Shown: piece by piece, positions 3,001 through 32,636 of the stretch
Layout of the letters: each line of letters opens with the position of its first letter
Numbering within the stretch: position 1 is the stretch's first letter
Source: a virus
Direction: 5' to 3' (one strand)
IMG/VR virus record: IMGVR_UViG_3300025666_000024
Location: 1 to 36,379 of that record
DNA: 36,379 nucleotides
Notes under the pieces: model-generated
Databases searched by the model: none
The model's input: only the letters and a program-made list of their open reading frames with translations
What the model was told of the DNA's origin: nothing
Translations under genes and position numbers: made by a program

Positions 3001-5216
3001 CTGAACTCATCGTATGTGTTGCTCAGGCCAGTAACTACAGCACCTGGTGAACCTAAAATAAAGCCACCAACAGCCTCCTGTGCGCCAGCCATAGCTATAT
3101 CCTGAATCCACTGCATTCCAGTGGCTGTCTCAAACTTCTCCTCGTCCTTTATGTAGTTATAAATCTTCTTCATACCCACCTCCGCAAACTCCTGTGCGGC
3201 ACCAGTCTCTGCCTCAGCTAATCCTGCACCAGTAAGCTTAAGTGCGCCCCTGGTAAACCCACTCTTGATGTCATCCCTTATTATCTTATCAAATGACTTG
3301 GCGGTTAACTGCTTCCCAGCTGACTTAGTGAAGGCCCTTCTAACCAATCGGTTCATTACACCACTTGTTGCCTTCATGTTTCTGATACCAAAAGCCTCTA
3401 ATGCTCCAGCTGCTATGGCTATGGGTGCTGATATTGCCATGCGCTCATTCTCTGACACATCGTCAAATTCTGGGTTGTTGGCCATCTCCTCCTTTATGGC
3501 TGCGTTTATTTGCGCCCCCATTAAAACCGTGGTCATTGAGCCACCAGTAGCATACCCAGCAACCATTGCTGGCAGGGACCTAGAAAGCCCCAGTAGTGAG
3601 CCACCTAAAAACGAATCCTGCTGCCCCTGTATATACTCGTCACTTACGTTTCCAGAGCCTATCAGCTCAACCAAACCATTCTGTATGGACTCCAGCTTTC
3701 CACCCTTCCACCTGCCGTCTTCTCCGTACTTTCTTTTTTTCTTTAGCTTATCCTTAACACTGGACTCCATGTCATCGTACACGCCCGAAGCTGTTGTAGT
3801 TATAACACCACCACCAAGAACCTCTTCCCCAGCCTCTTCTTTTAGTAATCCCTTTAACTCTTTAAGAATTAAATCAGAATTTTTATTTTCTTTTATTCTT
3901 TCTTTAGACTGCTTTTCACCCATTGATTTAGACTTCTTGGTTTCTTCGTAGTCACCGCTTGAAATCCTATTCAGTCTTTCCTGTTCCTCTTCAAAGGCAT
4001 CTAAGTTTAACTCCCTGTCTGTTGAGATGTTAGCCTCAGACTCTGCCATACCAGAAAGCCTGTCGTAATCCTCTTGGGATATCCTTTCGTCAGACAACGC
4101 CTGCTCAAGCATCATGTCTGTGTATACTCTTGGAGTGACTCCACCGTAATCACCCGTCCCGATTGATACGTCAATCATTATATCACCTCCAGTTGCGCCA
4201 ACGTCTCCGATACCCAGAAGAAACTGGTTGTACAGGGCAGAACTAAACTCACCCTGGTCCGTCTTCATGTCAAAGTAGGCACCAACACTCTGTGTCAGGT
4301 CCCATCTTCGGTCTATAAGGTCCCCCCTGTTGTTTTTTAATACGTCTGACATAGACTGAAACTCATCAACCCTGGCCTTATATGAATCGTAGTCAGCCTT
4401 TAGCTCTGGGTTGTCATCAAGGTCACCCTGGGTGAGTCCCTCAAACTTTTCACCGTAGGTACTAATCTCTTGGTATACGTTGTACAAGTCCTTTTCCTCT
4501 GAAACAAGTATATCCATGTCATCGTTTAAGGACTTTGTTGCCAACTCAACCTGTTCTTGGCTCATAAACCTTTTGGTCTCGTAAGCCTGTCTAGCCTCTA
4601 TTCTCTTCATGGACTCAACGTCCTCTGAACCCCTATTTTTTATTAAAAATGACTTTAATTTTAATGACTCTTCATTAGCATCTTCTGAGCTGTCCAAATT
4701 AAACTCACCTATCTCTCCATTGGGTGCTGTTACGGTAACCATGTCTCCTAGCCCCGACTCATCAAACTCAAACCCGTGGTCCTTAAACCTATATTTAAGC
4801 TCTGGGACAACAGTCTCCTCCTCCCTAAACATAAAGTCCTTGTCTATGTCGGCAATGGCTTGGCCAAAGAAGTCTATCTCACCCTCACGCTTACCAGTGT
4901 TAGGAATTAAAGGGCTAAGGGGTGTGTTCCTAAACCTCTCAGCCTCCTCTTTTTCTTTCTCCTTTTTTTCCATAAGCTCCTCAAAGCTCATCTTTTCAAG
5001 AACATCCTCCTTAGGTATATCTGCATTATTTAAGATAACATCTTGAAACTCAGTAACCGAGCCTGGTGTCTTTATGTTCTTAGTGCTTAGGTACTTCATA
5101 AATTGAGCTGCGGTGTCAGGGTTCTCTAGCCCCGACTGAAACTCCTCAAAGGAGTCAGGAACGGACACACCCTTTGACTTAACATACTCATAAAACTGTA
5201 AACCCTTGTCTTCCAT
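1..5216 (-). CDS. Giant polyvalent virion protein (HExxH, GNAT-like, polyvalent C-terminal motif), 3' end outside window
   Basis: An open frame of 1,738 codons runs off the left edge. The ATG at 5216 lies 4 bases after the stop of the previous gene and has an A/T leader. Visible parts: a twofold repeat at residues 6-62; a long charged region; hydrophobic Ala/Gly-rich stretches near 540-610 and 715-735 around an acidic segment (EAETGAAQEF, about 665); Lys/Glu coiled coils about 795-940; a zinc-peptidase motif HEAFH at 1028-1032; a GNAT-like segment with QRQGFG at 1562-1567 and DDAIGFWKKAG at 1590-1600; and RTPTFKKWF at the edge. The last motif resembles the opening of domains in the polyvalent proteins described by Iyer, Burroughs and Aravind. 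Such proteins are thought to enter the host with phage DNA. Its place after the tail and internal proteins supports an ejected protein. The enzymatic activities are inferred from motifs only. Confidence 0.85.
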   Translation of the reverse strand, partial: MEDKGLQFYEYVKSKGVSVPDSFEEFQSGLENPDTAAQFMKYLSTKNIKTPGSVTEFQDVILNNADIPKEDVLEKMSFEELMEKKEKEKEEAERFRNTPLSPLIPNTGKREGEIDFFGQAIADIDKDFMFREEETVVPELKYRFKDHGFEFDESGLGDMVTVTAPNGEIGEFNLDSSEDANEESLKLKSFLIKNRGSEDVESMKRIEARQAYETKRFMSQEQVELATKSLNDDMDILVSEEKDLYNVYQEISTYGEKFEGLTQGDLDDNPELKADYDSYKARVDEFQSMSDVLKNNRGDLIDRRWDLTQSVGAYFDMKTDQGEFSSALYNQFLLGIGDVGATGGDIMIDVSIGTGDYGGVTPRVYTDMMLEQALSDERISQEDYDRLSGMAESEANISTDRELNLDAFEEEQERLNRISSGDYEETKKSKSMGEKQSKERIKENKNSDLILKELKGLLKEEAGEEVLGGGVITTTASGVYDDMESSVKDKLKKKRKYGEDGRWKGGKLESIQNGLVELIGSGNVSDEYIQGQQDSFLGGSLLGLSRSLPAMVAGYATGGSMTTVLMGAQINAAIKEEMANNPEFDDVSENERMAISAPIAIAAGALEAFGIRNMKATSGVMNRLVRRAFTKSAGKQLTAKSFDKIIRDDIKSGFTRGALKLTGAGLAEAETGAAQEFAEVGMKKIYNYIKDEEKFETATGMQWIQDIAMAGAQEAVGGFILGSPGAVVTGLSNTYDEFSNDLPDMVYEAFNIVVGDPKIREGYISSINAQVADGSLTREEADEKIKTFKIAGGIAQSIPSDMRTSEKKQAFKLLYERQVLESSIEGKDKSLTKKEQGQIGEINKKIEALKEKSIKRSTKKEKDFEASNKVIEGINKKISEVKEKLEDKSITKKEKDSLQKQLTELENDLKIEEDKSTETDKQEATDIESFFEGTEGEDGPNFATNSGGKSQVLSDKQEAIVNKIKSRVEKVANSLKSRVPGVRILLHENADEYKRITGKSGGGAYIIEDGKGTIHINLSKARASTLAHEAFHAVFLHKLKTDSNAARAAIEMIKSVEKVLDPNSQLAKDIKAFSALYKDQGEGIQNEEKLAELVGRISSEYKTLSRSSKDKVIDLLKKLANKIGFKFEEDFGKSDQDVIDLLNTLARKFESGEEITEEDVSILKGEVSGEINGISPREDLGLLDIELKRFPNNPNTIVEDNVSLSIFNRKKSNLLESDRMTGAYISDPNNNPVFKFFGGIYFPQITGKWWASRTLSKANSISSNMNANRDSDGYIYATPIIMKPNSHMSNQDMFETVWEFMKFDLRSRSSKVTKQLFSQYIKKALSLKSVNLTEADLDIKKSDNIETMITKLNNVLIGKEVDNPNYDSTNPESIDNPKKIIEESRLSFEKRKAIIKAILGDPKVTEERKFPTAGSISEVASKFEEQKTKKAKKLWDIVMVMRTKGTLSAKVTPKSDEFYHKSYPSEISSDQEIEVFFLDGAYNIETTYPKLTQASGKTFSWEEYSEKHPSTKMALSQYGRTAKLSYASGEIADSKPATREQRIEKVYENSVFFYGGFFTGVQRQGFGKSIISDIFKNNPKIENILTYTQDDAIGFWKKAGGVVVQQGKDKNGILRYFVQINKNDIDTNLSTKKLGISYKNLETKKSKIDKGEYAIKMGRQKIGFFFVRDVGTIKTNPMGMIIEDADGLPKKPSAREQKQDTPQTREQRTERLAPNGKRSNLTDVQYDTVRTPTFKKWF

Positions 5217-15695: not shown

Positions 15696-16724
15696 TTAGC
15701 TTTTTTCGTTTATCTCCTCAGCCCTTGCTTCTTGCATGGCAACCTGAATTATTTGTGGGTCTCTAATCACTACACCGAAGTAGAACAACAGCTTGATTAT
15801 AAAGTCAACCCTCTCTGATACATGTAGTTCTATATCCGTTGAGCCGTATGTACTTGCGTTATTAAAATCAGATGCCTGAAGTGTTATTACAGGTCCAGTA
15901 CTACCAACACCAGTATTAGTCAGTTGACCATTATCAATTGTAATAACATCCCCAACCACATATCCTGTACCTGCTGTGGTTACGCTTAGTGTTACGTTTG
16001 TAGGTGTGGTTACGTTTGCAGATATTACAAGCCCAGTACCTGAACCTCCAGTGTATGTTGGTGTGTATGTATTGATATCACCCCCAGTAAGACCAGTGGT
16101 TATACTACTTGTTAGTGTGTTTGTGCCTGTGTTTAGTAGTGCCTCCCCGTAAACTGTGGGGTCGTATATGTACTGACCCAGTGTACCCACATTGTACCCC
16201 CATCTTGGGTCTGTAGGTTTTCTTAGGTAGTTTACAGAAACACCTGAATTTATACCGTTTGGCTTAACGTAAAGTCTTTCGTTTTCGTAAAGGTATGTCG
16301 GAAAGTATTTTGTCGATGCTGTTAGTAATGACTTCTGTATGTTATAAAAATCATTTCTCTGTAGCCTTTGTAGCTCCACTTCACTGTTATTTAAACCAGT
16401 GTAAACCACTGTACCTAAGCGATATAGGTCAGTTGGTAGTGTGTAATAAGGTGTGGTTGGGGTTGTGGTATTATCGTATGTTGCGTCACCGAAAGACTTG
16501 AATATAGAAAGCTTTTCATCGGTGTTCATTATCCTGTCCGAATAATCTGAGTCAGCCTGTGGGACACGAAGCTGTTGGTTTAGTTCCTCTGCATAGTTCT
16601 CAAACATCTGCAACTGAACCTGTGTGGCTATTTTATTAAACTCATTAGGGGTAACGTAACCCCTCTGCTCCTTGTTAAGAATCAGTAATGCGGTCTTATA
16701 TACCTCGTTAACATTTATAGCCAT
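15696..16724 (-). CDS. Conserved structural protein (head completion/neck candidate) with an inserted beta module, 342 aa
   Basis: The start (NEVYKTALLILNKEQRGYV, then FNKIATQVQLQMFENY) is a familiar opening of a structural family in marine Bacteroidota and crAss-like phages. It sits directly before the connector gene, which suggests a neck or head-completion role. Residues about 195-290 look like an extra beta module, with GTGYVVGDVITI and ending LQASDF, placed between the conserved core and the conserved C-terminal helices (FIIKLLFYFGVVIRDPQII). The same module type occurs in the 1,229-residue tail protein. The ATG at 16724 follows an A-rich leader and an RNA hairpin. The function is inferred from family and position. 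Confidence 0.6.
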   Translation of the reverse strand: MAINVNEVYKTALLILNKEQRGYVTPNEFNKIATQVQLQMFENYAEELNQQLRVPQADSDYSDRIMNTDEKLSIFKSFGDATYDNTTTPTTPYYTLPTDLYRLGTVVYTGLNNSEVELQRLQRNDFYNIQKSLLTASTKYFPTYLYENERLYVKPNGINSGVSVNYLRKPTDPRWGYNVGTLGQYIYDPTVYGEALLNTGTNTLTSSITTGLTGGDINTYTPTYTGGSGTGLVISANVTTPTNVTLSVTTAGTGYVVGDVITIDNGQLTNTGVGSTGPVITLQASDFNNASTYGSTDIELHVSERVDFIIKLLFYFGVVIRDPQIIQVAMQEARAEEINEKS

Positions 16725-17738: not shown

Positions 17739-19253
17739 TTACGCCGCAGTAGCCTTGAACAACACGAAGTTGTTAGCAGCCTGAGTAACCAAGCAACGCT
17801 CAGAAAGGAAATGAACCTTCATTACGTCTTCTCCTGAGGTAGCAGCACCACCTACAGAACCTGTAATCCAAGACTTCATTCTTCGGTCATCAGCTTCAGA
17901 AGCACGATAACGAGCGTGAAGGAATGGTCTACGAATGTTAGTACCTAACATCTGGTCGTAAACGGTAGTTGTTCCAGCAGGAACCAATACACCCTCTATG
18001 TCTCCTGTAAGACCACGAGTAGAAGCATCGTTAAGATATTTCCAATCAGTCTTGTAGAAGTCGTAAGAACCTCTTCGGAATCCAGAGAATCCTAAGTTCA
18101 GAGCCATTTCAGAGCTGTTCTCGAATACTCCGTAAGAAGTACCACCAGCACCGTAAGAGTTCTGAGCAGCAAGCATATCATCCATGTCTAGTGACGTAGC
18201 ACGATTTAAGAAAAGCATGTTCTCCTCAATAGCACCCTGCTTGTCAAGGTTAGCTAGAATCTTGTCGAAGTCAGCTAAACCACTAGCAGCAGTGAAGTTG
18301 TTATACACGTTTCCTCGCTCCTCGATAGCAGCAAAAAGACCTTGTGTACCTTTCACGTTAGCACTAGCACTACCTCCAGCTAGTTGTCCGATAGCAGCAG
18401 AACCAGCAGCAGCAAGTTCACCTTCTACAGAAACCATCTCTAGGTAATCCTGAAAACGTAGACGAGTCTCGCCTTCAGCCTTCAAGTACCAAAGGTATCC
18501 AGAAAGTCCAGCCTCATCAGTAACTTCAACCCAACCAATTTGAGAAGCGTCAGAACCTGAAACCTCATACTGGTCTTTGATGATTACTGGGCTATTGTTG
18601 TACTGAGTGAATGATGGTGTAATAGAACCACTCATAGAGTCAGTACCCTTACCAAATTCAGAACCATATACGAAGATTTTAACCTCTCCACCTTCACCTG
18701 GCTGTCCAACAGCAGTAGAAACTGCGTTCAAGTTAGCAGCAGTGTAAGGAAAAGCGTTAACATCCCAGTTAGTAGCTCCAGCAGCAGGCTCGGCATCAAC
18801 AAAACACTTAACAGAGTTTAGGCTTACTGTGTTATAAACAACAATAGTAGAACCAGCTCGGATAATAGGTTGAATAGATTCTCCAGCAGAGTTTTCACCA
18901 GCTACGTTTGTGATTGCTGTTGCACCAGCGGCAATAGCAGGAGCAGAAACAGTAGTAGCTCCTCCACCACCCATACCACCTTCAAAAGAAAGGTGTAGAC
19001 GGTTTTGCTCAGACCAAATAACTTGGTCAGAAGTCATTGGCATCTCAGCCCCAACCATACGAAGAAAACCAGAGATTGTACGGTTACCGTAACGCTCTAC
19101 TTCAGCTTCATAGATTTCAGGTAGATACTGCTGTGCGAAGTCGTTTCCGCTTCCATCAGCAAAGTTTAAATAAGAACCTTGAGTAACACTCTTAAAAGGA
19201 GTAGGTACCAAGGAAAACGAACCCAACGGGTCGTTAGTTGCAAATGTTCCCAT
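17739..19253 (-). CDS. Major capsid protein
   Basis: The protein has 504 residues and is Ala/Gly-rich, with no signal peptide or membrane segment. It follows a scaffold-like gene by 6 bases, comes after terminase and portal, and is followed at once by a strong terminator, as expected for the most abundant virion protein. The N-terminal region (FAQQYLPEIYEAEVERYGN, about 38-56) and the glycine cluster near 91-98 fit an N-arm and flexible loop of an HK97-like capsid protein, but the fold is inferred. Codon use differs by eye from the neighbours: many Arg codons are CGT or CGA here, while surrounding genes favour AGA and AGG. That suggests selection for high expression. Confidence 0.8.
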   Translation of the reverse strand: MGTFATNDPLGSFSLVPTPFKSVTQGSYLNFADGSGNDFAQQYLPEIYEAEVERYGNRTISGFLRMVGAEMPMTSDQVIWSEQNRLHLSFEGGMGGGGATTVSAPAIAAGATAITNVAGENSAGESIQPIIRAGSTIVVYNTVSLNSVKCFVDAEPAAGATNWDVNAFPYTAANLNAVSTAVGQPGEGGEVKIFVYGSEFGKGTDSMSGSITPSFTQYNNSPVIIKDQYEVSGSDASQIGWVEVTDEAGLSGYLWYLKAEGETRLRFQDYLEMVSVEGELAAAGSAAIGQLAGGSASANVKGTQGLFAAIEERGNVYNNFTAASGLADFDKILANLDKQGAIEENMLFLNRATSLDMDDMLAAQNSYGAGGTSYGVFENSSEMALNLGFSGFRRGSYDFYKTDWKYLNDASTRGLTGDIEGVLVPAGTTTVYDQMLGTNIRRPFLHARYRASEADDRRMKSWITGSVGGAATSGEDVMKVHFLSERCLVTQAANNFVLFKATAA

Positions 19254-20420: not shown

Positions 20421-22826
20421 TCACTTCGGCTCAAACTGTTCTAAGCCAATACCACCCAATACATCGTTTCCAGAGGACTCAAAGTTTGTTGGTAGTAAGT
20501 TGTTTTTTCTTTGGTTGATGAGTTCACTCTGCTGAGTTCCCTGAATCTTAATTCTCTTGTCTTTTCGGTCCTCTATACTCTGTTCTTTCTGACCCTCTGC
20601 GTTAGCCCTTACCTGTGCCAACTGCATATTAAAGTCAAACTCAACCTGCATTAACTCTCGCTTAATCTCAGCCTCGGCCCTAAGTCTTTGTATTTCAAAC
20701 TGAGACTTGGCCTGCTCTATACTAACCTTTTCTTGTGTCAGCGCCTGTTGTTTCTGCACCTCAGCCATTGCAGCCTTTTCAGCAGCCTCAGCGTTTGCCT
20801 GTCCCTGTGCCTGAATGTTTTGCATTTGAGCCTGTCTTTCAGCTTCAGCCTTCTTCTTTCTCTTTTGCTTAAGTATTTCGTTGGCAAGCTTTATGTTCTG
20901 TATCTCTCTGATGTCTATAACATCCTCTATGTCTATGCCACCAGACTTTAACGCAATCTGTATGTTTTGCTCTAACTGAGCCTTATCCTCATCCTCTGGC
21001 TCAAGTTCAAGGTATATACCAAAGTCATGTAGGTGTAACTTACTTATCTCCTGAAGCGTACCCACATTGTATGCACTTATAGCCTCCTGTAGTGAGTTGT
21101 TTGTCAATGCAAACTCAATAGAGTCAGCTATTCTTAATGATATGTTTTCACACGTTCTGGCAGATAAATACAGGCTTGACTGTAGTATGTGTCGTGTCGC
21201 TACGTTTGATGCATTAGCGGCAAGCTTTTGCAGTCCCACGAGGGTGTCCTCCATTGGTGCGCTACCATCCCTAGCCTCATTGAGTCCAGTTACATCTCTA
21301 ATCATCTGTAAGTAGTACTGGTATGTATTTATCAACGCACCTATTTTAGCCTGACCGTTAGACGTACTCAGCTCTTGGATTGGAACCTTTCCCCTATTCA
21401 TATCACCCTCCTGAGTCAAAGACCTGCCAAGTATACTACCAGTTTGGAAGTACATGTTCAATGCCTCCTGTGGGTTGTAGTTTGTTCCGTTCCCTAAGTC
21501 AATCTCCGCAAGTCCGTCTATGTCTAAATAAACACCGTCAGGAACAAGCTTTGATATAACCTGCTGTATCTTCAGGTTTGTGATGTTTATCATGTCAGCA
21601 AACCCAGTAATTTTACTAACCGTAGATTCTATCCTTCCCTTGTACATACGAGGAGATGAAATAGCGTAGTTCATCTGAACCTTTGTAGTGTCAGCGTATG
21701 GTCGGGTCATGTTCTCAGAAAGCCTCCAATCAATCATCTGGTCGTAACCAAGAATCTTAGCCCCAGTATACAAAACCTCTATAGTTCTGGATACCTTTTT
21801 AAATGTGTCTGATTCTGGTGGGTTAAAAGAATCTGTTTTTTCTATAATCTTTTCAAGACCATTACCAGTTTGCTTTAACTTAAACACCTGGTTCATATAT
21901 GTCTTATACTCAAAGTACAAAACCTGTACCGTGTTCTCGTCATAGTCGTTCCAACCAACAACATAGTCAGTCCTGTTACCCATCTTGGATATCCTGTCTA
22001 GCTCCTCCTCAGAAATAAATGGGTACTGCTTCTTAAGTTCTGGTATTGTTATAGACCTTACCTCACCTACATAGTACACGTCCTCGAAGTTTGGGTCTTC
22101 TGTGTATGACCAAACCATTTTAGCTGGGTCACAGTAATTAATTACAACACCCTCAGCCTTGTTCCAATCAGTCTTTACCGCAGCAATACCAAGAACTGTG
22201 AGGTCGTAGTTCAACCTTCTTCTGATTAACTCAAACTTATTCTTGTCCAAGGTGTTGTTTATAACCTCCTCCTCAGCTATCTCTATAGACGGCTTGTACT
22301 TAAGCTGCATATGAATAGATATCTCCTCCTCAGTTTCTGGGAGGTTACTCTGGTCTGGTGTGCTGTATAGGTCAAGACCCATCGTTTGTTTTATCTGCTC
22401 TATCTCAGCCTTGGCTGTAATGTCCCTCAATAAACCAGATGCGTAGTTTGTTCTTTTCTTTATAGACTCTGGGTCTTGTGCATATGCATTAATCTTGTAC
22501 TTCTTTTCAGACATACCGTTGACCACGATGTCAACAAACTTAGATATCACTGGCACTGGCTTCCAGTCTAGGTTAAGGTATGAAAGGTCTCCGTTTATAG
22601 ACAACTCGTCCTTGTATTTCTGTATTGGCTGCTCACCTCTAGCGTACAACCTTAGATTGTGGTATCTGTTCCAGTTAGTGGCAAACCTGTTACCACTTCT
22701 CCCCCCATGAAACCACTCACCCTCTATAGCTCTTCCTACTTGAACGCCATACTCAAAGCTCTTTTTTTCCTCGTCACTAACGACTTGGCTTGGGAACGAA
22801 CTATTTGGATTTGTGCTTATATTCAT
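20421..22826 (-). CDS. Portal protein
   Basis: The protein has 801 residues, in the range of large portals of crAss-like and P22-like phages. It overlaps the large terminase gene by the 4-base ATGA junction and precedes the scaffold and capsid genes. The core is mixed alpha/beta (for example YDLTVLGIAAVKTDWNKAEG, about 206-225). Residues about 655-770 form a long coiled coil rich in Gln, Ala and Glu, which suits the barrel or crown region inside the head. It forms the dodecameric channel for DNA entry and exit and binds the terminase. Identification rests on length, order and overall character. Confidence 0.8.
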   Translation of the reverse strand: MNISTNPNSSFPSQVVSDEEKKSFEYGVQVGRAIEGEWFHGGRSGNRFATNWNRYHNLRLYARGEQPIQKYKDELSINGDLSYLNLDWKPVPVISKFVDIVVNGMSEKKYKINAYAQDPESIKKRTNYASGLLRDITAKAEIEQIKQTMGLDLYSTPDQSNLPETEEEISIHMQLKYKPSIEIAEEEVINNTLDKNKFELIRRRLNYDLTVLGIAAVKTDWNKAEGVVINYCDPAKMVWSYTEDPNFEDVYYVGEVRSITIPELKKQYPFISEEELDRISKMGNRTDYVVGWNDYDENTVQVLYFEYKTYMNQVFKLKQTGNGLEKIIEKTDSFNPPESDTFKKVSRTIEVLYTGAKILGYDQMIDWRLSENMTRPYADTTKVQMNYAISSPRMYKGRIESTVSKITGFADMINITNLKIQQVISKLVPDGVYLDIDGLAEIDLGNGTNYNPQEALNMYFQTGSILGRSLTQEGDMNRGKVPIQELSTSNGQAKIGALINTYQYYLQMIRDVTGLNEARDGSAPMEDTLVGLQKLAANASNVATRHILQSSLYLSARTCENISLRIADSIEFALTNNSLQEAISAYNVGTLQEISKLHLHDFGIYLELEPEDEDKAQLEQNIQIALKSGGIDIEDVIDIREIQNIKLANEILKQKRKKKAEAERQAQMQNIQAQGQANAEAAEKAAMAEVQKQQALTQEKVSIEQAKSQFEIQRLRAEAEIKRELMQVEFDFNMQLAQVRANAEGQKEQSIEDRKDKRIKIQGTQQSELINQRKNNLLPTNFESSGNDVLGGIGLEQFEPK

Positions 22827-25039
22827 CTATCTATTATTTTAGAAATACTACCAGTATTGTCATATCTTTTAAAGCCAAGGCTGATGTTATTTCTAACCAC
22901 TTTGTTTATAGGTGCGTATCTATTTTTGTTACAGGCCATTACCGCCAGTCCTGAACTAATAGACGCATCAAACTTCGTTCTGTTGTTTATATCAAACCTT
23001 GCCCAGTCATTTAATGTTCTGTCGAAATACATATCCCCGTACTGGTCATCGCCTATGACACCAACACACTCGTCTATGTAAGTTTCTATTGCGGCTGCAT
23101 GAGCCTGCTTAATGTCTTCACTTGAGTTAGGTATACCGCCTATCTCTTTTTCTGTCTGTGAAAGGTTGTTCCAAACCCTGTCTGGTCTGTTCATAGAGTA
23201 TCCCCTGTAACCCCTTCTCTTAATGTGGTATAAAAGTCTTGGCTTGTTATTCTCACAAAGTATTGGCATACCGTAAAAAATAATAGCCATTAATATATCC
23301 TCAAAAAATATCTCAGCGGTCTGTGGTCTGGATATATACTCCAGAAAAAAGTGGTTTGCTGGTGCCTCCTCCATAGAGAACTTTGTCAGTCCGTGTAGAG
23401 AACCATTTGAACCTACGCCACTTACGGTTCCTGATATGTCGTAACTGTCACAACCAAATGCTCCTACATGCTCGTTTCCAGGATACTTAACCCCATTCTT
23501 TAGTATTACTCTATTTTGCAGATTTATTGGGGGAACCCATGAAATTAAAAACCTTCCGTTGTTACTAGGTAGGAATATTACCCTTGTATCTTTTATACCA
23601 TTCTCCCACTGAAAGTTACCCTTACTGAGTATGTTAGTGTTTCTAAGGTCCTGATTATAATCTATCTGCTGGTATATTCTGGTGAGGTTAAACAAAGAGT
23701 TCTTAGCCTCATCCCTAAATGCATGCTCCACTGTTCTAGGGAACTGCCTGTAAAATTCATTAAGACCATCCTGGTCGTTCTTTAAGCCCTCTACCTCGTT
23801 CTGCCAGTAGTCAATGACACCCATTTGTATTTCATTACCAAACGTGTCAAGCACCTTGTCTTCTGGTGTTTCAAACACAGGGTATCCATACTCGTCTATG
23901 TATCCCTCGTAGTTCCACTCCATTGGTATAAACAACCCGTAAAGACCAGATGCCGTCTGCCCGTTGGCATTTCTTTTTGATACGTCAGAGTTCTCGTACA
24001 GCTTCTTAAAGTTTTCACCACCCTTGTCCAAAGAGTTTGATGTGCTACCCATCATGCACTTCCCAATCACCCTGCTACCCAGCCTCAGACATGTCTTAGT
24101 AACCCTCCAGTTGTTTAGTATGTTTGTGGGTTTTTCCCACTTACCACTCTCATCATGCACCAACAGGGATAGCTTCTCACCATCATATGAGTTGTCTCCC
24201 GTGTTCTTCCAGTCTATCGTAGTGTCAAGACCCGTGATTTCCTCAACCTTGTTGTTACTGTCCAGCTTCTTTCTAGTGAACTTAGATGCTGGCACACGAT
24301 ACGCAAGCTCTGTCTTAGGTCTGTCCATACCATCCTGTATGGGTTTAAAAAAGAACGGGTAGTTTACCGATATCGGTACCACCTTATCTGTGAACATTTT
24401 CTTGGCATCGGGTCCTGTCTTAGACAGTATACCAAACCTTGAGTCGCTGGATAGTGTTGCTAAGTTTACAGTTTCTGCCGATGACATAAAAGAAAAGCCA
24501 GAGCGTCTATTCTTTAAGTAGCACATCCCGTAGCTTCTGTGGTCTGCCTTACACGCCTCCCAGAATATAAAGAACAGCCTGTTAGACTCCCTGAAGTCTG
24601 GCTTACCAATATCTATCTTAGACCACTGTAGGTAGTTGTAGTGAGAACCAGTTATGTATGTTGGCTTCTTGTTGTTCACAAACCAAAAACCCTCTTCCCT
24701 TCTGGTAAACTCTGTGTCTATGTAGTCAAACCACTTGTTCTTAAACTCATCTGGTGCCTCGTTCCAATCAAAAACACTCTTAAACCTAGACAACTCCTTT
24801 GGGTATGTTGTATACTCCCACTTACTTTCACTAAACCTAGTCACATTTGACTCAGTTGGTAACGCTATCTTAAGTCCCTGTATTTCGTATATGTCCCCAA
24901 CCTGTCCAGTCTTACTTATAACCACAACATCGTGGTCCTTGTTATAACCATACACCCACTTCTTACCCTTGTTCATCCTCTTCAGAACGTGTGGCTTTAT
25001 GTGGTCATCAACTATATTTACTAGCGTCTGTTCGTACAT
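22823..25039 (-). CDS. terL: Terminase large subunit (packaging ATPase and nuclease)
   Basis: The protein has 738 residues. The ATPase part has a Walker A-like KNRRSGFS (176-183), in which basic residues replace part of the usual P-loop, as in several terminases, and a Walker B with catalytic glutamate (LLVHDE, 292-297). A following strand (GKCMMGSTSN) fits the coupling motif. The C-terminal RNase H-like nuclease shows candidate acidic residues at Asp531 (GCDSYD), Glu580/Asp581, Glu596 and Asp691. It pumps DNA into the head through the portal and cuts the concatemer. The start overlaps the previous stop (TAATG) and the end overlaps the portal start, so the three genes form a tight packaging unit. 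Confidence 0.9.
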   Translation of the reverse strand: MYEQTLVNIVDDHIKPHVLKRMNKGKKWVYGYNKDHDVVVISKTGQVGDIYEIQGLKIALPTESNVTRFSESKWEYTTYPKELSRFKSVFDWNEAPDEFKNKWFDYIDTEFTRREEGFWFVNNKKPTYITGSHYNYLQWSKIDIGKPDFRESNRLFFIFWEACKADHRSYGMCYLKNRRSGFSFMSSAETVNLATLSSDSRFGILSKTGPDAKKMFTDKVVPISVNYPFFFKPIQDGMDRPKTELAYRVPASKFTRKKLDSNNKVEEITGLDTTIDWKNTGDNSYDGEKLSLLVHDESGKWEKPTNILNNWRVTKTCLRLGSRVIGKCMMGSTSNSLDKGGENFKKLYENSDVSKRNANGQTASGLYGLFIPMEWNYEGYIDEYGYPVFETPEDKVLDTFGNEIQMGVIDYWQNEVEGLKNDQDGLNEFYRQFPRTVEHAFRDEAKNSLFNLTRIYQQIDYNQDLRNTNILSKGNFQWENGIKDTRVIFLPSNNGRFLISWVPPINLQNRVILKNGVKYPGNEHVGAFGCDSYDISGTVSGVGSNGSLHGLTKFSMEEAPANHFFLEYISRPQTAEIFFEDILMAIIFYGMPILCENNKPRLLYHIKRRGYRGYSMNRPDRVWNNLSQTEKEIGGIPNSSEDIKQAHAAAIETYIDECVGVIGDDQYGDMYFDRTLNDWARFDINNRTKFDASISSGLAVMACNKNRYAPINKVVRNNISLGFKRYDNTGSISKIIDR

Positions 25040-25320
25040 TACTTCTTAGACCTGTTTTCAGCAAAACCAGAGAACACCTTTTTTGGTGCCTCAACCTTTT
25101 CTACGTTGTTCAGCATATTCTCCTCCTCGTTAATCCTGTTTAGGATTTCAAAGGCATCAAATATTGCAAGCTTTTTAGTGGCCGCAGCGTTCTTTAATCT
25201 GTCCGCTGATACATCATCCTCACCACCAGTAACTATCGGCTCCCTAGCCACCTTAATTAGTTCCTCAACCGCTGTTCGTCCAGCTTGGATTATACTTAGT
25301 TTCGCTTCCTTCGTCTCCAT
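25039..25320 (-). CDS. Small protein before terL, small-terminase candidate
   Basis: The protein has 93 residues and is helical and charged (RLKNAAATKKLAIFDAFEIL, about 41-60), ending in a basic tail. It sits immediately before the large terminase (TAATG overlap), where a DNA-recognising small subunit is expected, but no helix-turn-helix is obvious. I remember similar small proteins at this place in marine phages without a proven role. The first 56 bases overlap the end of the GroES-like gene in another frame. The start at 25320 is kept because the N-terminal segment (SIIQAGRTAVEELIKVA) looks like conserved protein. Confidence 0.5.
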   Translation of the reverse strand: METKEAKLSIIQAGRTAVEELIKVAREPIVTGGEDDVSADRLKNAAATKKLAIFDAFEILNRINEEENMLNNVEKVEAPKKVFSGFAENRSKK

Positions 25321-25861
25321 AGGTCAAAGCAATATTTTTAGATTTCATACAATATAATAGTTCACCGTCCACCACAAACTCAAACTCTGACTCTGGGGTA
25401 AACCCCACAACCATTCCTGGGTGTACATCGTGTTCTTCAAGCGTCTTGTTGCCATACCTAAGTATACCAGTAAGTGGCTTCTCCTTCTGAGATGACCAAT
25501 CATCGTCATTAACAACTGGCTGTACAAAGCAGTAGTCAAGGTGTGATTCATTGTCACCATAAAGATATATCTGCTCTGGTGAACAAGCGTACATATCTTC
25601 TTTTATATGGCTACGACTATTCTTTTCATTACCCCTTATGTCGTAAAACCTCCTAAACACATTATGGTGGACAATAACCTTGTCACCAACCTTAATATCT
25701 GTTACAATGGATAGTGGTGTGGCTATTACCTCTGCCTCGTTACTAACGCTCTTGTAACTCTCAATCTTTGTGTTGGTCACAAAACTAACCCCACCAATCT
25801 CCTTGGTATTGTTGTACCTTCCAGATACAGGCTTTATAATAAAGTCATACACACTCCTCAT
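25265..25861 (-). CDS. Double GroES-like (Cpn10-fold) protein
   Basis: The protein has 198 residues and looks like two GroES folds in tandem. Domain 1 (about 6-102) has FIIKPVSGRYNN, IKVGDKVIVHHNVFR and a closing EQIYLY. Domain 2 (about 109-182) has FVQPV, TGILRYG, then GMVVGFTPESEFEFVVDGEL followed by YCMKSKNIALTY. The last part aligns by eye with the end of this phage's own GroES (GDTVYYDRHAGFDMEIKGVV then YKVIKEF). I recall similar proteins in marine phages. It may be a co-chaperonin for the phage or host GroEL, or a GroES fold adapted as a structural protein. It lies just before the terminase genes. The last 20 residues are polar and overlap the next gene. The fold is fairly convincing; the function is inferred. 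Confidence 0.6.
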   Translation of the reverse strand: MRSVYDFIIKPVSGRYNNTKEIGGVSFVTNTKIESYKSVSNEAEVIATPLSIVTDIKVGDKVIVHHNVFRRFYDIRGNEKNSRSHIKEDMYACSPEQIYLYGDNESHLDYCFVQPVVNDDDWSSQKEKPLTGILRYGNKTLEEHDVHPGMVVGFTPESEFEFVVDGELLYCMKSKNIALTYGDEGSETKYNPSWTNSG

Positions 25862-26093: not shown

Positions 26094-26321
26094 CTACTCA
26101 GTTTCAACCTTAGTGTACGAACCGTCTGATAGGTCTATGTTGATAGCACCGTACTTTTCCTCAAGCTCCTTCTTGCTAGTATTAGAGTCACCTAGTACCT
26201 CAATGTATGCCTTTAAAAGACCATCCTTTTCGGTCTCTATAAAACCTATTCTCTTAAGTAGGTTGTTTAACTCTACCTGCTGCTCAACAATCTTGTCAAG
26301 CTCTTCTTTTTCTATTTTCAT
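26094..26321 (-). CDS. Small coiled-coil protein, 75 aa, unknown function
   Basis: The protein is Glu/Lys-rich, with a likely coiled coil through residues 1-60 (EELDKIVEQQVELNNLLKRI) and no membrane segment. It is the first gene of the block leading to terminase, portal and capsid. Upstream, the 73 bases 26322-26394 hold no gene. They contain an A/T palindrome (26325-26336) next to the start. A small assembly factor or regulator is possible, but nothing in the sequence decides it. Confidence 0.5.
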   Translation of the reverse strand: MKIEKEELDKIVEQQVELNNLLKRIGFIETEKDGLLKAYIEVLGDSNTSKKELEEKYGAINIDLSDGSYTKVETE

Positions 26322-26394: not shown

Positions 26395-26736
26395 TTAAAC
26401 GGGTATTTTACCAAAAGGTACCCCACCTTTTTTATACGCCTCTTTTTCCCAAGGCTCTTTACCTGTACCCATCATGTTTAATGAACGGGAGTATTTTTTA
26501 CCCTTCCAATAAAAGTTAGGACCGTCCCAATCTAGGTCACCCCTCTCGATTTGGTCAACGTGGACCTTTTCGTGTTTGATGACCGCATCGTGATATTTTG
26601 GGTCTACGTCTTTGTTTATGAGGATGGTTCCGTTCTTGTTTGTTCTACCAAGAACAGACCCCTCTTCCTTAAAGTCATTCAAGTATACCGCAGGTCCGTC
26701 AAGATTGTATGGGGGTTTGTCTAGCTTAAAGCCCAT
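26395..26736 (-). CDS. Short HExxH metallopeptidase-like protein
   Basis: The protein has 113 residues. KHEKVHVDQ carries HEKVH at 55-59, the zinc-binding and catalytic motif of gluzincin-type metallopeptidases. A downstream PWEKEAYK (95-102) offers Glu97 or Glu99 as a third ligand. It is soluble, with no signal peptide. It contains LNMMGTG (87-93), which resembles the GANMMG motif repeated in the preceding gene. Start and previous stop overlap (TAATG), so the two are translationally coupled. It could process phage structural proteins or act on a cell-wall peptide. The motif is seen; activity and substrate are inferred. Confidence 0.6.
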   Translation of the reverse strand: MGFKLDKPPYNLDGPAVYLNDFKEEGSVLGRTNKNGTILINKDVDPKYHDAVIKHEKVHVDQIERGDLDWDGPNFYWKGKKYSRSLNMMGTGKEPWEKEAYKKGGVPFGKIPV

Positions 26737-27791
26737 TACTTTCCTCGCTTGTTGTATTGATTTTTTCCACCAGACTTAGCGTCTCTGACGATTACGTTTT
26801 CACCTTTCATCATAGGCTTCTTGCCTTTCATGTTGGCTCCTTTTATTTTACCTACTCGTCTTTCTTGTCTAGCTTCACGTCTTTCTTCACGTCTTTCTTG
26901 TCTAGCTTCTTTAGGAGTTTGTGGGTCACCACCACTTACAATATTAGCTGCTTTTGCGACAACCCTACCAGGTGCCATAGCTATGTCTTTTAGGTTTTCT
27001 GAGTGTTCATAAGCATCTTTCCTATTAGCTTTTTGCATTTTAGCTTTTGAGATAACCCTACCAGGTGCCATTCGCATCGTACCAATACCCATCATGTTTG
27101 CACCATCTCCGTACATGTTAGCTCCTCGACCACCCATATGCTTAGAGATTGAGTTACCCATCATGTTAGCACCTGCACCCTCTTCAGCTTCCTTTCTATC
27201 TCTTCCTTTGCCAAAAGCCTTTCCAGCTAATCCACCAGCTACTGCCCCTAAAGGTCCGAATGCTAACATACCAAGGCCAGCCCCAATGCCAGCACCTTTT
27301 GTTTCTTTTTTACCCATACCTAATAAATCTGGGCCTTTTTCTTTTACCATTTTTTTATTAATTGCATCTAATCCTTTTTGCATAATATTCTTACCCGTTT
27401 CTGTTTTACTAAAATCATTAGCAGCCTGTGATATCTTCTTAAACTCTCCAGAACCCTTCATTTTGAATCCCTTTCCTTCACCAAGGCTTTCAATACCTTT
27501 AATTACCTTTTTTCCAACGGAAATTAATGGTGGTAATACAGTAGCAGCAATACCCGTAGCAGCACCAATCTGGGCAAGAGTTAGACCTCCAGCAGCAGCA
27601 GTAGCAGCAGCAGCAGCATTTGGTCCCTTCCCGTACATACTAGCACCATCCTTGTCAGCTCTTTCGTTTTCTATGTAGTGTAGCCTAGCCTCTGGGCTTA
27701 GGTTTTTGTTGTACGCCATAGATTCATCGTACTTTCTTTCAGCTCTCTTTGATTTTTTTTCAGCCTTTTTGGCTTGTCTCTTTGCTCTCAT
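26736..27791 (-). CDS. Basic glycine-zipper protein with repeated GANM motifs, 351 aa
   Basis: The order is: a Lys/Arg-rich helix (1-25); an Ala-rich run with GPNAAAAATAAAGG near 57-70; a hydrophobic segment up to about 90; a glycine zipper (GAGIGAGLGMLAFGPLGAVA, about 167-186); a cluster of GANMMGN, GRGANMY and GDGANMMGIG (about 203-235); two copies of APGRV[IV][SA]KA; a charged Arg/Glu helix (about 293-310); and a basic tail with GANMKG. Glycine zippers often pack in membranes or oligomers, so a membrane-active or internal virion protein is plausible. I do not recognise a family. A second glycine-zipper protein lies on the far side of the lysis genes. Function unknown. Confidence 0.6.
   Translation of the reverse strand: MRAKRQAKKAEKKSKRAERKYDESMAYNKNLSPEARLHYIENERADKDGASMYGKGPNAAAAATAAAGGLTLAQIGAATGIAATVLPPLISVGKKVIKGIESLGEGKGFKMKGSGEFKKISQAANDFSKTETGKNIMQKGLDAINKKMVKEKGPDLLGMGKKETKGAGIGAGLGMLAFGPLGAVAGGLAGKAFGKGRDRKEAEEGAGANMMGNSISKHMGGRGANMYGDGANMMGIGTMRMAPGRVISKAKMQKANRKDAYEHSENLKDIAMAPGRVVAKAANIVSGGDPQTPKEARQERREERREARQERRVGKIKGANMKGKKPMMKGENVIVRDAKSGGKNQYNKRGK
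26857..26909. repeat. Direct repeat inside the glycine-zipper gene
   Basis: A 20-base unit at 26857-26876 recurs exactly at 26890-26909, with a partial copy between. It encodes the Arg/Glu-rich helix of the 351-residue protein (repeats of RQERRE type). Such a repeat could expand or contract by slippage. Confidence 0.8.
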
Positions 27792-27809: not shown

Positions 27810-28301
27810 TTAAAACGGTTTTATAAATTTCCACCCAATCTTAACCAAGACTACGATTGATGCTATTAGTATAATCCAGAACAGATACCTCTTTAGGTAC
27901 CTCTTCATTTGGTCTAGTATTCCTTCCTCCCTTACAACTACCCTTTCAAACGGTATCTCCACCGTGCGTATGATTGTATCGCTTTTGCACTCGCCCTGTA
28001 TGTATGTCGTGTCACCGACCCTAACATACTTAACTCTAAGCTTGTCCTTATATAGATATGTAGTATCTCCAGGTATATCAACAAACGAAGTGTCATATTC
28101 AATCCTGTCCGATATAATGTTGAATGTGTCATGTAGTGTGTCCTTGTTTAAAAGTCTAGGGTATTTAATTGTAAGTTTTTCTATCCTACGTTCAGCCCTC
28201 CTAAATTTATTTTCTAACCTCTGTTCGACAGAACACGAGTTAAATAAAAATACAATTAGGAGTATAAAGAATATACCGTATTTCCTTTTACTCTTTTGCA
28301 T
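27810..28301 (-). CDS. Unimolecular spanin (u-spanin) candidate
   Basis: The protein has 163 residues. The N-terminus is a lipoprotein signal: basic KSKRK, a hydrophobic core (GIFFILLIVFLF) and a lipobox-like FNSC with Cys23. A charged periplasmic part follows (about 25-135). The C-terminus carries one membrane segment (FWIILIASIVVLVKIGW, about 141-157) with a short basic end. A lipidated N-terminus in the outer membrane plus a C-terminal inner-membrane anchor is the design of u-spanins such as T1 gp11, which disrupt or fuse the outer membrane in the last lysis step. The first 46 bases overlap the end of the endolysin gene in another frame, as spanin genes often do. This also says that the host is Gram-negative. 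Confidence 0.75.
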   Translation of the reverse strand: MQKSKRKYGIFFILLIVFLFNSCSVEQRLENKFRRAERRIEKLTIKYPRLLNKDTLHDTFNIISDRIEYDTSFVDIPGDTTYLYKDKLRVKYVRVGDTTYIQGECKSDTIIRTVEIPFERVVVREEGILDQMKRYLKRYLFWIILIASIVVLVKIGWKFIKPF

Positions 28302-28720
28302 TTCAATACTTGATTTCTATTATCCCTTTCTTTGTAAGAAACATGAACCCAGTCTGGGTTATCTTCGTTTCCGTACTCCCAGATAAGCTGGTCAAAGTCC
28401 AAGTTGTCTTTTATAAAGTTAAACATCTCAGCGTTTGACATTCGTCCAAGTGTGTCATCAATGTCCATAGCTGCACCATTAATAGCGCAGTGCTGCGAAC
28501 TTGACGAACCCCCGATAGCTCTATTTAACTCTACACTTCTGAACAGACTGTTGATAGCTATTGGTCCACCAACATGCTCTCTAAGAGGCTCAAACACCTT
28601 CTCACACAGTAGCTTTATGTTTTCCATCTGCTCACCGCTGGGTATGTTTTCTATACCCTTCCTTGTTGCTGTGTTGCTTTTAATTACCTCCTTGTAAGAA
28701 ACGTGTTCAGTTACCTTCAT
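28256..28720 (-). CDS. Endolysin, M15-type peptidase
   Basis: The protein has 154 residues. SLFRSVELNRAIGGSSSSQH leads into His77, followed by AAMDID with Asp86 and later DWVHVSY with His126. These are the three expected zinc ligands of the M15 (D-Ala-D-Ala carboxypeptidase-like) family, which cuts peptide cross-links in the wall. The spacing His77 to Asp86 has 8 residues between, two more than the usual HxxGxxxD. There is no signal peptide, so it needs a holin for release. The ATG overlaps the stop of the small membrane protein (ATGA), and the end overlaps the spanin gene. The lysis role is well supported by context. Confidence 0.8.
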   Translation of the reverse strand: MKVTEHVSYKEVIKSNTATRKGIENIPSGEQMENIKLLCEKVFEPLREHVGGPIAINSLFRSVELNRAIGGSSSSQHCAINGAAMDIDDTLGRMSNAEMFNFIKDNLDFDQLIWEYGNEDNPDWVHVSYKERDNRNQVLKCKRVKGNTVYSLYS

Positions 28721-30400: not shown

Positions 30401-30841
30401 TTACCTGTTTTTGTCATTATTAACTGAAATAATTGATTTAGATAAAACTTTGTCCATGTAAGTCCTACCCAACATAATCTTGTTGTGAGTGCTGGTGGGT
30501 AAATCCTCCTGTCCGAGCATTATCTTATACATCCTGTTAATTAACTGCTTAGTTCTAAGGGCCACCTCGTACACATGGTACCTCTGTGTTGTGTGGTTCC
30601 TTTTTCTCCAGACCACAATCCACCCGTTCTTTAGCAGCCTGTCCCAACGCCTCTTGTCCCAGCTGTAGGAAAACACACCCGTCTCGTAGTCCTTCCTGGT
30701 GAACCTACCCTCACAGTCCAGGTATATTAAAAGCTCTAGGTCAGAGTCTGAAAGGCCATTAACCTTACACGCCCACTTCCTTATTGTCCTGTAATGCTTT
30801 AATAGGTTTATATCTTTTAGAGTCTGTGGCTCTAGCCTCAT
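30401..30841 (-). CDS. Putative winged-helix DNA-binding protein
   Basis: The protein has 146 residues. The order of helices and a small sheet looks like a winged helix of MarR type: LSDSDLELLIYLD, then GRFTRKDYE, then WDKRRWDRLLKNGWIVVWRK (about 62-81), with the wing near RNHTTQRYHVYEV, and a C-terminal helix (LINRMYKIMLGQ). I remember related small proteins in marine phages. It follows groES with an ATGA overlap, so it is translated with the chaperonins. It may regulate phage genes or the chaperonin unit, but no operator is known. Fold call is moderate; role is inferred. Confidence 0.55.
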   Translation of the reverse strand: MRLEPQTLKDINLLKHYRTIRKWACKVNGLSDSDLELLIYLDCEGRFTRKDYETGVFSYSWDKRRWDRLLKNGWIVVWRKRNHTTQRYHVYEVALRTKQLINRMYKIMLGQEDLPTSTHNKIMLGRTYMDKVLSKSIISVNNDKNR

Positions 30842-31098
30842 AACACAACGACAACGTCAAACTCTTTTATCACCTTGTATACCACACCCTTTATCTCCAT
30901 ATCGAAGCCAGCGTGTCTGTCGTAATAAACCGTGTCACCCTCAGTGATACCCTCAACAAGGTTACCAACCTTAGATACTGTAGCCTCTCTGTACCTTATG
31001 TCTTCTTTATGAGCGTCAGACAAGATTAGACCACTCTCGTTCTTAGTGCTTCCCTCCTTTACTGGTTGGATGAGCATGTACTTACCTATAGTCCTCAT
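30838..31098 (-). CDS. groES: Phage co-chaperonin GroES
   Basis: The protein has 86 residues, about 10 fewer than usual GroES. The first strand (IGKYMLIQPV), a Ser/Asn/Lys-rich mobile loop with GLIL (23-26) in place of the usual GIVL, and the closing strands (GDTVYYDRHAGFDMEIKG then YKVIKEFDVVVVL) are clear. The loop tripeptide LIL should bind the apical domain of GroEL. It starts in an ATGA overlap with the end of groEL, so the order groEL-groES is reversed compared with bacterial operons. It likely forms the lid for the phage GroEL. Confidence 0.85.
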   Translation of the reverse strand: MRTIGKYMLIQPVKEGSTKNESGLILSDAHKEDIRYREATVSKVGNLVEGITEGDTVYYDRHAGFDMEIKGVVYKVIKEFDVVVVL

Positions 31099-32636
31099 TT
31101 CTGTCTAAGGTTATTGATTACACAGTTTGTGGACATAATAGTCGTGGACACAGACACAGCGTTCTTTAATGCACTCTTTGTAACGAGTAGTGGGTCAATG
31201 ATTCCAGCCTTTATCATGTCAACTGTTTTTCCAGTCTTTACATCGACCCCATATCCCGTCCTCTTATCGTAGATAATCTCATCGTACTCACCATTTGTCA
31301 TAATAACCTCGTAAGGCTTTCTAATGGCCCTTAAAAGGGCTTGTTCGACCTCATTCGATGTCTTTACCTTGTTGGATGCGTTGAGTAGTGCTACGCCACC
31401 ACCTGGGAGTATTCCCTCCTTTATGGCGGCCCTTGTTGCACAAATAGCATCCTCAACCCTGTCGCTCTTCTCTTTAAGTTCTACCTCAGAGTTGGCCCCA
31501 ACCTTTATGACTGATACCTTACACGATAGTATGGCAAGTCTTTTTTCTAGTTGTAACTTCTTGCCTGGGAACTTTGTTTCCTCCATCTGAGACTTAACTA
31601 GTTCTACAAGCTCTTTTACTTCGTCATTTAATTCATCCACCTCAAGGATTGTCTCCTCCTTGTTGCTTATAGCCTTTGAGCATTCGCCCAAGTGTTCTGG
31701 CTGTATGAGGTCCATGTCATCACCCAGGTCTTCGTTGATTACCGTTGCACCTGTGATAACAGCTAGGTCCTGCATTCTTTCCTTCCTGTTGATACCGTAG
31801 TCTGGTGCGTCAACAACATTGACCTTTATGTTACCCTTTATCTTGTTCATAGCTAAAGCAGAAACAACCTGCTCGTCAGCGTCCCCGATTATAAGTAGCT
31901 CCTTGTTATTCTTTATAACGTATGCTAGTATCGGCTCTATCTTTCTTATGTTATCTATCTTATTCTCTACGATAAGAACCAGGGGGTTGTTTAACACACA
32001 AGACCCACTATCCTTGTCTGTGATAAAGTGAAAGTTCTTCAGTGGCTTATCTAGTGTTGCACCATTAACAACCTCAAACGATGTCTTCTCGTCCCTTGAT
32101 ATCTCCATTGTCACCACACCACCCTTTCCAGATGCGTTGAACGCAGATGATATTATATCACCCAGCTCCTCGTCATTGTTAGATGAAATGGTGGCAACGT
32201 GCTTGAGCATCTCACCACTCACATCCTTGGCCCTGTCTTCTAGGTATTTAATTACTTTTAACGTTGCTGAGTTTATACCAGCCTTAATTTCTCTTTCACT
32301 GAAACCCTCAATCTTTTGGGCCTCATTTATTATTGAGTGGGCTAGTATGGTTGCCGTTGTAGTTCCGTCACCAGCTTCCTCCACTGTCTTTCTTGCCGCC
32401 TGCTTTAACAGTGTGGCACCCATGTTTTCTATTGGGTCTATTAGCGTAACTGCGTTAGCTACCGTCACACCGTCCTTTGTTACCACAGGGTTTCCAGAGC
32501 CGTCCTCTAGAAGCACACACTTACCACTTGCTCCAAGGGTTGAACTTACCGCTAGGTATAGCTTATCTATACCGTTAAACACATTCTCCCTAGCCTCACT
32601 ACCAAAGCTAAGGTGTTTGATTATTTCGTTTGACAT
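31095..32636 (-). CDS. groEL: Phage chaperonin GroEL
   Basis: The protein has 513 residues and the whole GroEL architecture. TKDGVTVA (53-60) gives Asp55, and GDGTTTATIL (89-98) gives Asp90, matching the ATP-site aspartates of E. coli GroEL (52 and 87). EGILPGGGVALLN marks the second half of the equatorial domain and IIDPLLVTKSALKNA the final helices. The usual GPKG near the start is GASGK here, and the protein ends at NLRQK without the Gly-Gly-Met tail. It should fold proteins inside a double ring with GroES. GroEL genes are known from a few phages (such as Pseudomonas phage EL) but are not common. The ATG at 32636 has an A/T leader with a palindrome; no Shine-Dalgarno. Confidence 0.92.
   Translation of the reverse strand: MSNEIIKHLSFGSEARENVFNGIDKLYLAVSSTLGASGKCVLLEDGSGNPVVTKDGVTVANAVTLIDPIENMGATLLKQAARKTVEEAGDGTTTATILAHSIINEAQKIEGFSEREIKAGINSATLKVIKYLEDRAKDVSGEMLKHVATISSNNDEELGDIISSAFNASGKGGVVTMEISRDEKTSFEVVNGATLDKPLKNFHFITDKDSGSCVLNNPLVLIVENKIDNIRKIEPILAYVIKNNKELLIIGDADEQVVSALAMNKIKGNIKVNVVDAPDYGINRKERMQDLAVITGATVINEDLGDDMDLIQPEHLGECSKAISNKEETILEVDELNDEVKELVELVKSQMEETKFPGKKLQLEKRLAILSCKVSVIKVGANSEVELKEKSDRVEDAICATRAAIKEGILPGGGVALLNASNKVKTSNEVEQALLRAIRKPYEVIMTNGEYDEIIYDKRTGYGVDVKTGKTVDMIKAGIIDPLLVTKSALKNAVSVSTTIMSTNCVINNLRQK

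Follow-up and report, generated by a model that had tools for sequence, protein, structure and literature searches.

A 36,379-base virus record (hereafter the window, meaning the whole stretch of DNA that was analyzed) encodes a 113-amino-acid protein whose identification as a single-domain gluzincin-type zinc peptidase, with predicted activity, is well supported by alignments and structure models. The protein belongs to a real, strongly constrained family under purifying selection, and it is encoded by a near-core gene in a single podovirus lineage. Comparison of sequences and models brings out the family, its candidate zinc-site pattern, the constraint on it, the location of the gene and its absence from a sister lineage. 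In the reading that we prefer, to which we give about an even chance, the protein is an endopeptidase of this type that would most likely cut proteins made in, or delivered by, the variable gene cassette in which it is encoded, rather than the capsid. The features of the window that bear on this reading are as follows.

26395-26736, minus strand: gene for the minimal zincin-like peptidase, 113 amino acids, ATG start (from ORF, alignment and model).
26560-26574, minus strand: HEKVH, residues 55-59, with candidate zinc ligands H55 and H59 and candidate general base E56.
26446-26448, minus strand: Glu97, candidate third zinc ligand (PWE-x-x-A-Y), from conservation and the offset of the IrrE alignment.
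26725-26736, minus strand: N-terminal leader MGFK (family consensus MAFK), of a type common to unrelated cassette proteins.
26736-27791, minus strand: glycine-zipper protein, 351 amino acids, with motifs ANMMG, ANMYG and KHMGG.
27810-28301, minus strand: lipoprotein-like, spanin-like protein of 163 amino acids, assigned from sequence only (best family match only E 0.26).
28256-28720, minus strand: M15 peptidase/endolysin (Pfam PF08291, 6.8e-16; phrog_894, endolysin).
26094-26321, minus strand: conserved 75-amino-acid protein at the terminase-side end of the cassette.
22823-25039, minus strand: terminase large subunit (phrog_6681, 1.1e-165).
25265-25861, 30838-31098 and 31095-32636: the group of GroEL, GroES and a second GroES-like protein, near the terminase and conserved across the lineage.
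17739-19253, minus strand: capsid-slot virion protein (phrog_13704), colinear with homologues in peptidase-less phages.
3-5216, minus strand: giant ORF of at least 1738 amino acids that runs off the window, with HEAFH at 2121-2135.

The first-pass annotation had pointed to a tiny HExxH protein, and such a protein is indeed encoded: its 113 residues include HEKVH at positions 55-59, and Glu56 is the residue that had been named for mutation. HExxH arises in 0.28% of 20,000 shuffles of the protein and is present in 2 of the 85 window ORFs of at least 40 amino acids (ATG to stop, both strands), and the real evidence for the peptidase is conservation rather than this motif count. Two further details of that annotation stand in part. 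The downstream helix, described as Glu-rich, holds just two glutamates in residues 95-104 (PWEKEAYKKG), but one of these, E97, is invariant. Coupling to the glycine-zipper gene does exist, in that the minus-strand junction reads GTAATGGG, with the glycine-zipper TAA and the peptidase ATG overlapping by one base (TAATG), but it is confined to close loci, and distant ones have other upstream genes. In 11 close loci (L001-L007 and L009-L012), the upstream ORF stops exactly at the peptidase start codon, as it does in three loci that carry a different upstream gene. Since the glycine-zipper partnership is shared by close loci only, it was rejected as a general feature. The glycine-zipper gene falls within a loose neighbor cluster of 24 upstream genes, which low-complexity sequence may link. 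At one locus (L014:6610-6936), the N terminus of the peptidase ORF has given way to residues resembling those with which the glycine-zipper protein ends, as though a deletion had removed the junction.

Relatives of the peptidase are encoded by 209 stretches in viral contigs, the best 80 of which were analyzed. These 80 of 209 stretches yielded 56 distinct complete sequences, including the window protein and the L014 protein with its altered N terminus; H55, E56, H59, Q62, W96 and E97 are kept in all of them (56/56) and E99 in 55/56. Two alignments were used: A1, of 54 rows, and A2, of 57 rows from chosen representatives, which adds MAG contigs (12 loci) and large-phage relatives. The A2 rows are 24-93% identical to the window protein, and eight columns (H55, E56, H59, L68, W96, E97, A100 and Y101) are invariant in 57/57. 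Because E97 is invariant across the 57 rows of A2, it is most likely the third zinc ligand. As the patterns used to fetch relatives favor conserved stretches, loci were also fetched by terminase alone, and 31 of the 80 loci selected in this way had a peptidase match. HExxH is present in 29 of these 31, the other two being contig-edge fragments that start after the motif, and the downstream Glu is present in 31/31, 29 times as WExxA and twice with a changed neighbor (YExxA and WExxP, both read by eye). The loop from HExxH to this Glu varies in length from 38 to 54 residues in the terminase-selected loci. In the close clade, dN/dS could be computed for 11 pairs and lies at 0.025-0.062 for 10 of them; the eleventh, with L005, has only 4 differences, and two further pairs are saturated.

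The window protein matches PHROG 10499 (1.2e-6) and PHROG 16532 (7e-6), as do 55/57 and 56/57 of the A2 members, respectively. On large phage contigs, most members of these PHROGs have 136-157 amino acids and an added N-terminal part, whereas those of the window lineage are mostly 103-116 amino acids, with the short MAFK leader replacing that part. For the family as a whole, no Pfam or NCBIfam model scored above its cut-off. Peptidase_M78 (PF06114) gave weak matches in 18 of 54 members, the best at 0.0023 and all short of the gathering score, and gave none to the window protein at E 1; the SprT-like Pfam model was absent from the 13 families found for the 54 members at E 1. A PDB sequence search with the 113-amino-acid protein returned nothing useful, and no report on it was found by title or abstract in the open-licence literature.

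AlphaFold2 models of the protein, which contain no metal, reached a pLDDT of 74.1 with 54 sequences and 81.6 with 57 divergent sequences, the latter model having ∼91 over the HExxH block and active-site helix. In order, the model consists of three short strands, a helix (residues 46-65) that carries HExxH, a beta hairpin region (68-83) and a helix (95-104) that carries E97, while residues 1-16 are without secondary structure. An HExxH helix followed by a Glu on a second helix is the gluzincin pattern. With VIA-align, the best match was IrrE (3dte; Z 6.0, rmsd 4.0 over 82 residues), and others were 8sln (Z 5.8), SPRTN (6mdx, Z 4.9), abylysin (4jiu; Z 4.5, rmsd 3.1 over 73 residues) and Wss1 (5xbn, Z 3.9); such scores are middling, a Z near 6 may reflect only a common arrangement, and the absence of a family from these lists does not exclude that family. 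Foldseek found no match below E 0.5 in the PDB (an IrrE-like fold scored 0.58) and eight at or below 0.001 among predicted viral proteins, three of them labeled SprT-like (1.2e-5 to 4.3e-4).

In the IrrE alignment, for which only the range ends are given, residues 12-107 of the window protein are placed onto 39-123, with end offsets of 27 and 16. If these offsets hold at H55, H59 and E97, as we infer, the three residues would map onto IrrE positions 82, 86 and 113, which correspond to the zinc ligands His82, His86 and Glu113 named in PMC5552922. The earlier suggestion that the protein is close to a minimal metallopeptidase is borne out by the invariant HExxH and downstream Glu, by a fairly confident zincin-like model and by best matches to IrrE/PprI, SPRTN, abylysin and Wss1. 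Judged from alignment and model, the protein is very probably a zinc peptidase, for which both zinc binding and peptidase activity are predicted. Zinc would be held by His55, His59 and Glu97, Glu56 would act as the base that activates water, and the substrate would lie along the short sheet adjoining the active-site helix.

Which phages carry the gene? The window terminase matches 87 phage records; the closest, at 64%, is podovirus ctfjg026 (MW202828, Manatee Spring), and the other 86 are below 60% and are mostly Flavobacterium elemoviruses and Cellulophaga phages. Also recognized in the window are a portal, the capsid-slot protein, GroEL, two GroES-like proteins and the M15 endolysin. The lineage that carries the gene consists of uncultivated marine podoviruses and is related to phages that infect Bacteroidetes. 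Among window-lineage contigs chosen by terminase, 18 of the 19 that span the slot contain the peptidase gene, a figure that became 22 of 23 once the fetch had been widened and duplicates removed. The contig that is without it (L241:372-5108) keeps a holin-type gene. For the sister lineage, that of ctfjg026, the peptidase was found in 0/10 slot-spanning loci and 0/80 loci of any kind. Whole-record searches of 10 sister contigs, ctfjg026 and elemoF also gave no peptidase, an empty answer that alone shows little; other genes occupy the peptidase slot in ctfjg026 and elemoF.

This distribution bears on the role first proposed for the protein, the processing of structural proteins as a head-maturation protease, which had been suggested partly on the ground that no other such protease was visible. 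The protein is a plausible protease, and three structural proteins of the window, w287 (N-terminal ∼40 amino acids), w342 and w401, have extra stretches when compared with peptidase-less phages. A parallel proposal of the head-maturation type has been published for another jumbo-phage zincin (PMC7824862). However, the peptidase is missing from sister phages whose terminase, portal and capsid genes are homologous to those of the window, among them two phages with whole records that share these head genes, and the N termini of the capsid, portal and scaffold-slot proteins are about colinear between the window, ctfjg026 and elemoF. Because these proteins start alike, there is no capsid propeptide confined to peptidase-bearing phages. 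The gene also lies outside the head module, among lysis and adhesin genes, and a relative on a large phage contig lies near a gene for an ssDNA-binding protein. We note that the neck-slot protein w342 (15696-16724) is longer than its counterparts in ctfjg026 and elemoF and that a stretch in its interior includes TGYVVGDVITID; an L017 cassette protein contains comparable stretches of the form TGYxxGDxITI.

Moreover, the giant ORF at 3-5216 carries a second HExxH domain (HEAFH), so the assumption of no other visible protease fails once the whole window is considered. This domain has matches at 34% in 68 elemovirus records, where the gene is annotated as a structural protein, and the ORF has a weak metallo-protease match (phrog_87, 0.0028). 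It has no detectable relation to the 113-amino-acid protein. The ORF resembles the polyvalent proteins described in PMC5512222.

The peptidase gene lies in a variable cassette between GroEL/GroES and the terminase. In the best 80 of the 209 loci, the terminase is downstream of the peptidase in 80/80, and GroEL, GroES and w146 are upstream wherever the contig reaches. The contents of the cassette include M15 endolysin, holin, adhesin (phrog_24280), DUF6321 proteins, long fiber-like proteins and small basic proteins; relatives of the DUF6321 protein of L216 were found in other marine phages only, and over its C-terminal part only. The commonest downstream neighbor, at 25 of 81 distinct loci and with a spacing of -7 to +4 bases, belongs to one loose cluster. 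Proteins of this kind were recognized as holin in L030 (Pfam and PHROGs), L017 (Pfam) and L241 (PHROGs), the Pfam model in the first two being GTA holin; 10 of the 81 distinct loci match the L030 holin directly, and the L020 neighbor has no family match. A cluster of small proteins (∼60 amino acids, ...WDGPL...GSSSG; L051 and 17 further lineage loci) is present in 18/18 peptidase-bearing loci and 0/12 sister loci. On large contigs, relatives of the peptidase sit among small ORFs, and the L100 copy is ∼2 kb before the ssDNA-binding-protein gene.

In 17 loci of the lineage (L095 and L190-L205), the same slot is held by fused forms of ∼460-680 amino acids. Those read full length begin with the peptidase domain, with HEDHH and the Glu kept; the L192 form was fetched by its later part only. 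Searches of Pfam and PHROGs with the L191 fused protein gave no family match, and tblastn against phages with a fused variant and a leader protein as queries gave nothing useful. Enzyme and substrate that travel together would be expected to yield a protease on a motif-bearing tail, although such a fusion is no proof of this.

The peptidase (MAFKLxxPPY) has unrelated neighbors that start in a similar way (MAYKQSP, MGYKQHNNPF, MAFKIKRFISPL and MAYTQPSSPF). In terminase-chosen loci, a start of the form M[AGSP][FY][KTIR] is found in 34 of 234 cassette proteins from 18 peptidase-bearing loci versus 1 of 233 from 12 loci without the gene. The peptidase itself supplies 14 of the 34, leaving 20/216, and is one of the 15 clusters that leader-start proteins form. 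The motif SP[LFM]x(0,2)K, which was fixed from other loci and tested on 17 gene-bearing loci plus L241, with L051 left out, occurs 18 times in these 18 lineage loci versus 2.7 expected (maximum 8 in 200 shuffles) and once versus 2.0 expected in 12 sister loci; the stricter SP[LFM]xK is present in 11 of the 18 test loci. Within the first 30 residues, [SN]P[LFM] is found in 27 lineage proteins versus 4.2 expected, and the sister lineage is also above expectation (11 versus 3.6, maximum 10, in three clusters). Four of the 22 peptidase-bearing loci have no leader or SPL-type protein besides the peptidase, and L241, the sole lineage contig without the peptidase, is also without every leader or SPL-type protein. 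Other motifs (ANMMG, ANMYG and GPNA) take their place in the clade to which the window itself belongs. In the cassettes of L211, L216, L217, L260, L266 and L380, unrelated small proteins have MA[FY]K or MAYKQ leaders and SPLxK-type motifs, sometimes several per protein.

Since these motifs were chosen after viewing the data and the lineages differ by descent, the contrast between them being phylogenetically one event, we take the counts as the source of a hypothesis only. That the shared leader is a DNA recombination seam is not favored, as codons and upstream bases differ. The hypothesis, which we consider unlikely as it stands, is that the cassette encodes a system of tags along with an enzyme that processes the tagged proteins, the tags being the MA[FY]K or MAYKQ leader together with SPLxK or GPNM-like motifs. 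Leader and motifs would route unrelated small proteins to one place, such as the virion interior, the tail or the cell envelope, and the peptidase, bearing the same leader, would be routed along with them and would trim or release the tagged proteins.

In the preferred reading of a gluzincin-type endopeptidase, the protein may process some virion or cassette protein, and its likeliest targets would be proteins made or delivered by the cassette and not the capsid. That cassette proteins are its substrates is a tentative proposal that draws on location and on shared motifs, the latter picked post hoc and within one lineage.

If the substrates lie elsewhere, one possibility, although a somewhat unlikely one, is that the protein is a host-directed regulator protease of the ImmA/IrrE kind, which would be made inside the host and would cut a host repressor or defense protein. 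This idea draws on IrrE/PprI as the best structural match, on the weak Peptidase_M78 matches, on a relative in Ochrobactrum phage OC that is annotated ImmA/IrrE and on the small-ORF surroundings of the large-phage relatives. In addition, where the jumbo-phage review discusses SprT-like copies, it argues in favor of host targets (PMC7824862). It fits less well with a gene that is a fixed part of the stretch from the lysis and adhesin genes to the terminase, with the fusion of variants in the same slot to long C-terminal regions or with the surroundings of the gene, where no helix-turn-helix partner was noticed.

A role as a lysis accessory, in which the protein would help to release progeny by cleaving an envelope protein or by switching on a lysis protein, is quite unlikely. 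In the window, the M15 endolysin and the lipoprotein are just upstream, and three proteins of the downstream cluster found at 25/81 loci are recognized as holin; yet holin matches cover part of the cluster only, L241 keeps the holin without the peptidase, and no signal peptide is visible in the MAFK leader. It is improbable that the protein binds zinc as a catalytically silent structural or adhesion protein: its small size, the adhesin neighbor at some loci (phrog_24280 in L013) and a leader common to proteins without an enzyme motif would all suit such a role, but Glu56 is invariant alongside the ligands, and a purely structural zinc site would not require it. Finally, head maturation by the 113-amino-acid protein is highly improbable, and we rejected it in view of the gene's phyletic distribution, its position and the colinearity of the capsid N terminus.

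With these results, an uncharacterized phage protein family gains a probable catalytic site, and a reduced form of the family is seen to be close to fixation in this lineage of uncultivated marine podoviruses. The set of leader-tagged proteins could reveal cargo sorting or processing in such phages; should the idea of tagging prove wrong, we are left with a very small zincin-like domain.

Among known systems, IrrE/PprI (M78, ImmA/IrrE) resembles the window protein in its HExxH and downstream Glu, gives the best fold match and has ligand positions that would coincide by offset. IrrE carries HTH and GAF-like parts, whereas the window protein is without either and has a beta hairpin (68-83) before the Glu helix. 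In size and in having one domain, it is like the minigluzincins (abylysin, jannalysin and selecase), which are single domains of ∼100 residues, although identity in structural alignments is 14-19% and there is no PDB sequence match. SPRTN matches in fold (Z 4.9), and related viral proteins are labeled SprT-like. The third zinc ligand of SPRTN is a His, whereas the invariant downstream candidate ligand here is Glu97. If the tag system exists, it would be comparable to T4-like phages, in which capsid-targeting sequences are trimmed, but with an unrelated zinc enzyme. The zincin-like MPTases of polyvalent proteins, described in PMC5512222, have an HExxH helix and a Glu helix within phage proteins, as does the window protein, and fused variants also occur in the window lineage. 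The 113-amino-acid protein differs from that group in being a single small domain without the group's N-terminal helix, and the giant ORF at 3-5216 is the better fit to it (PMC5512222).
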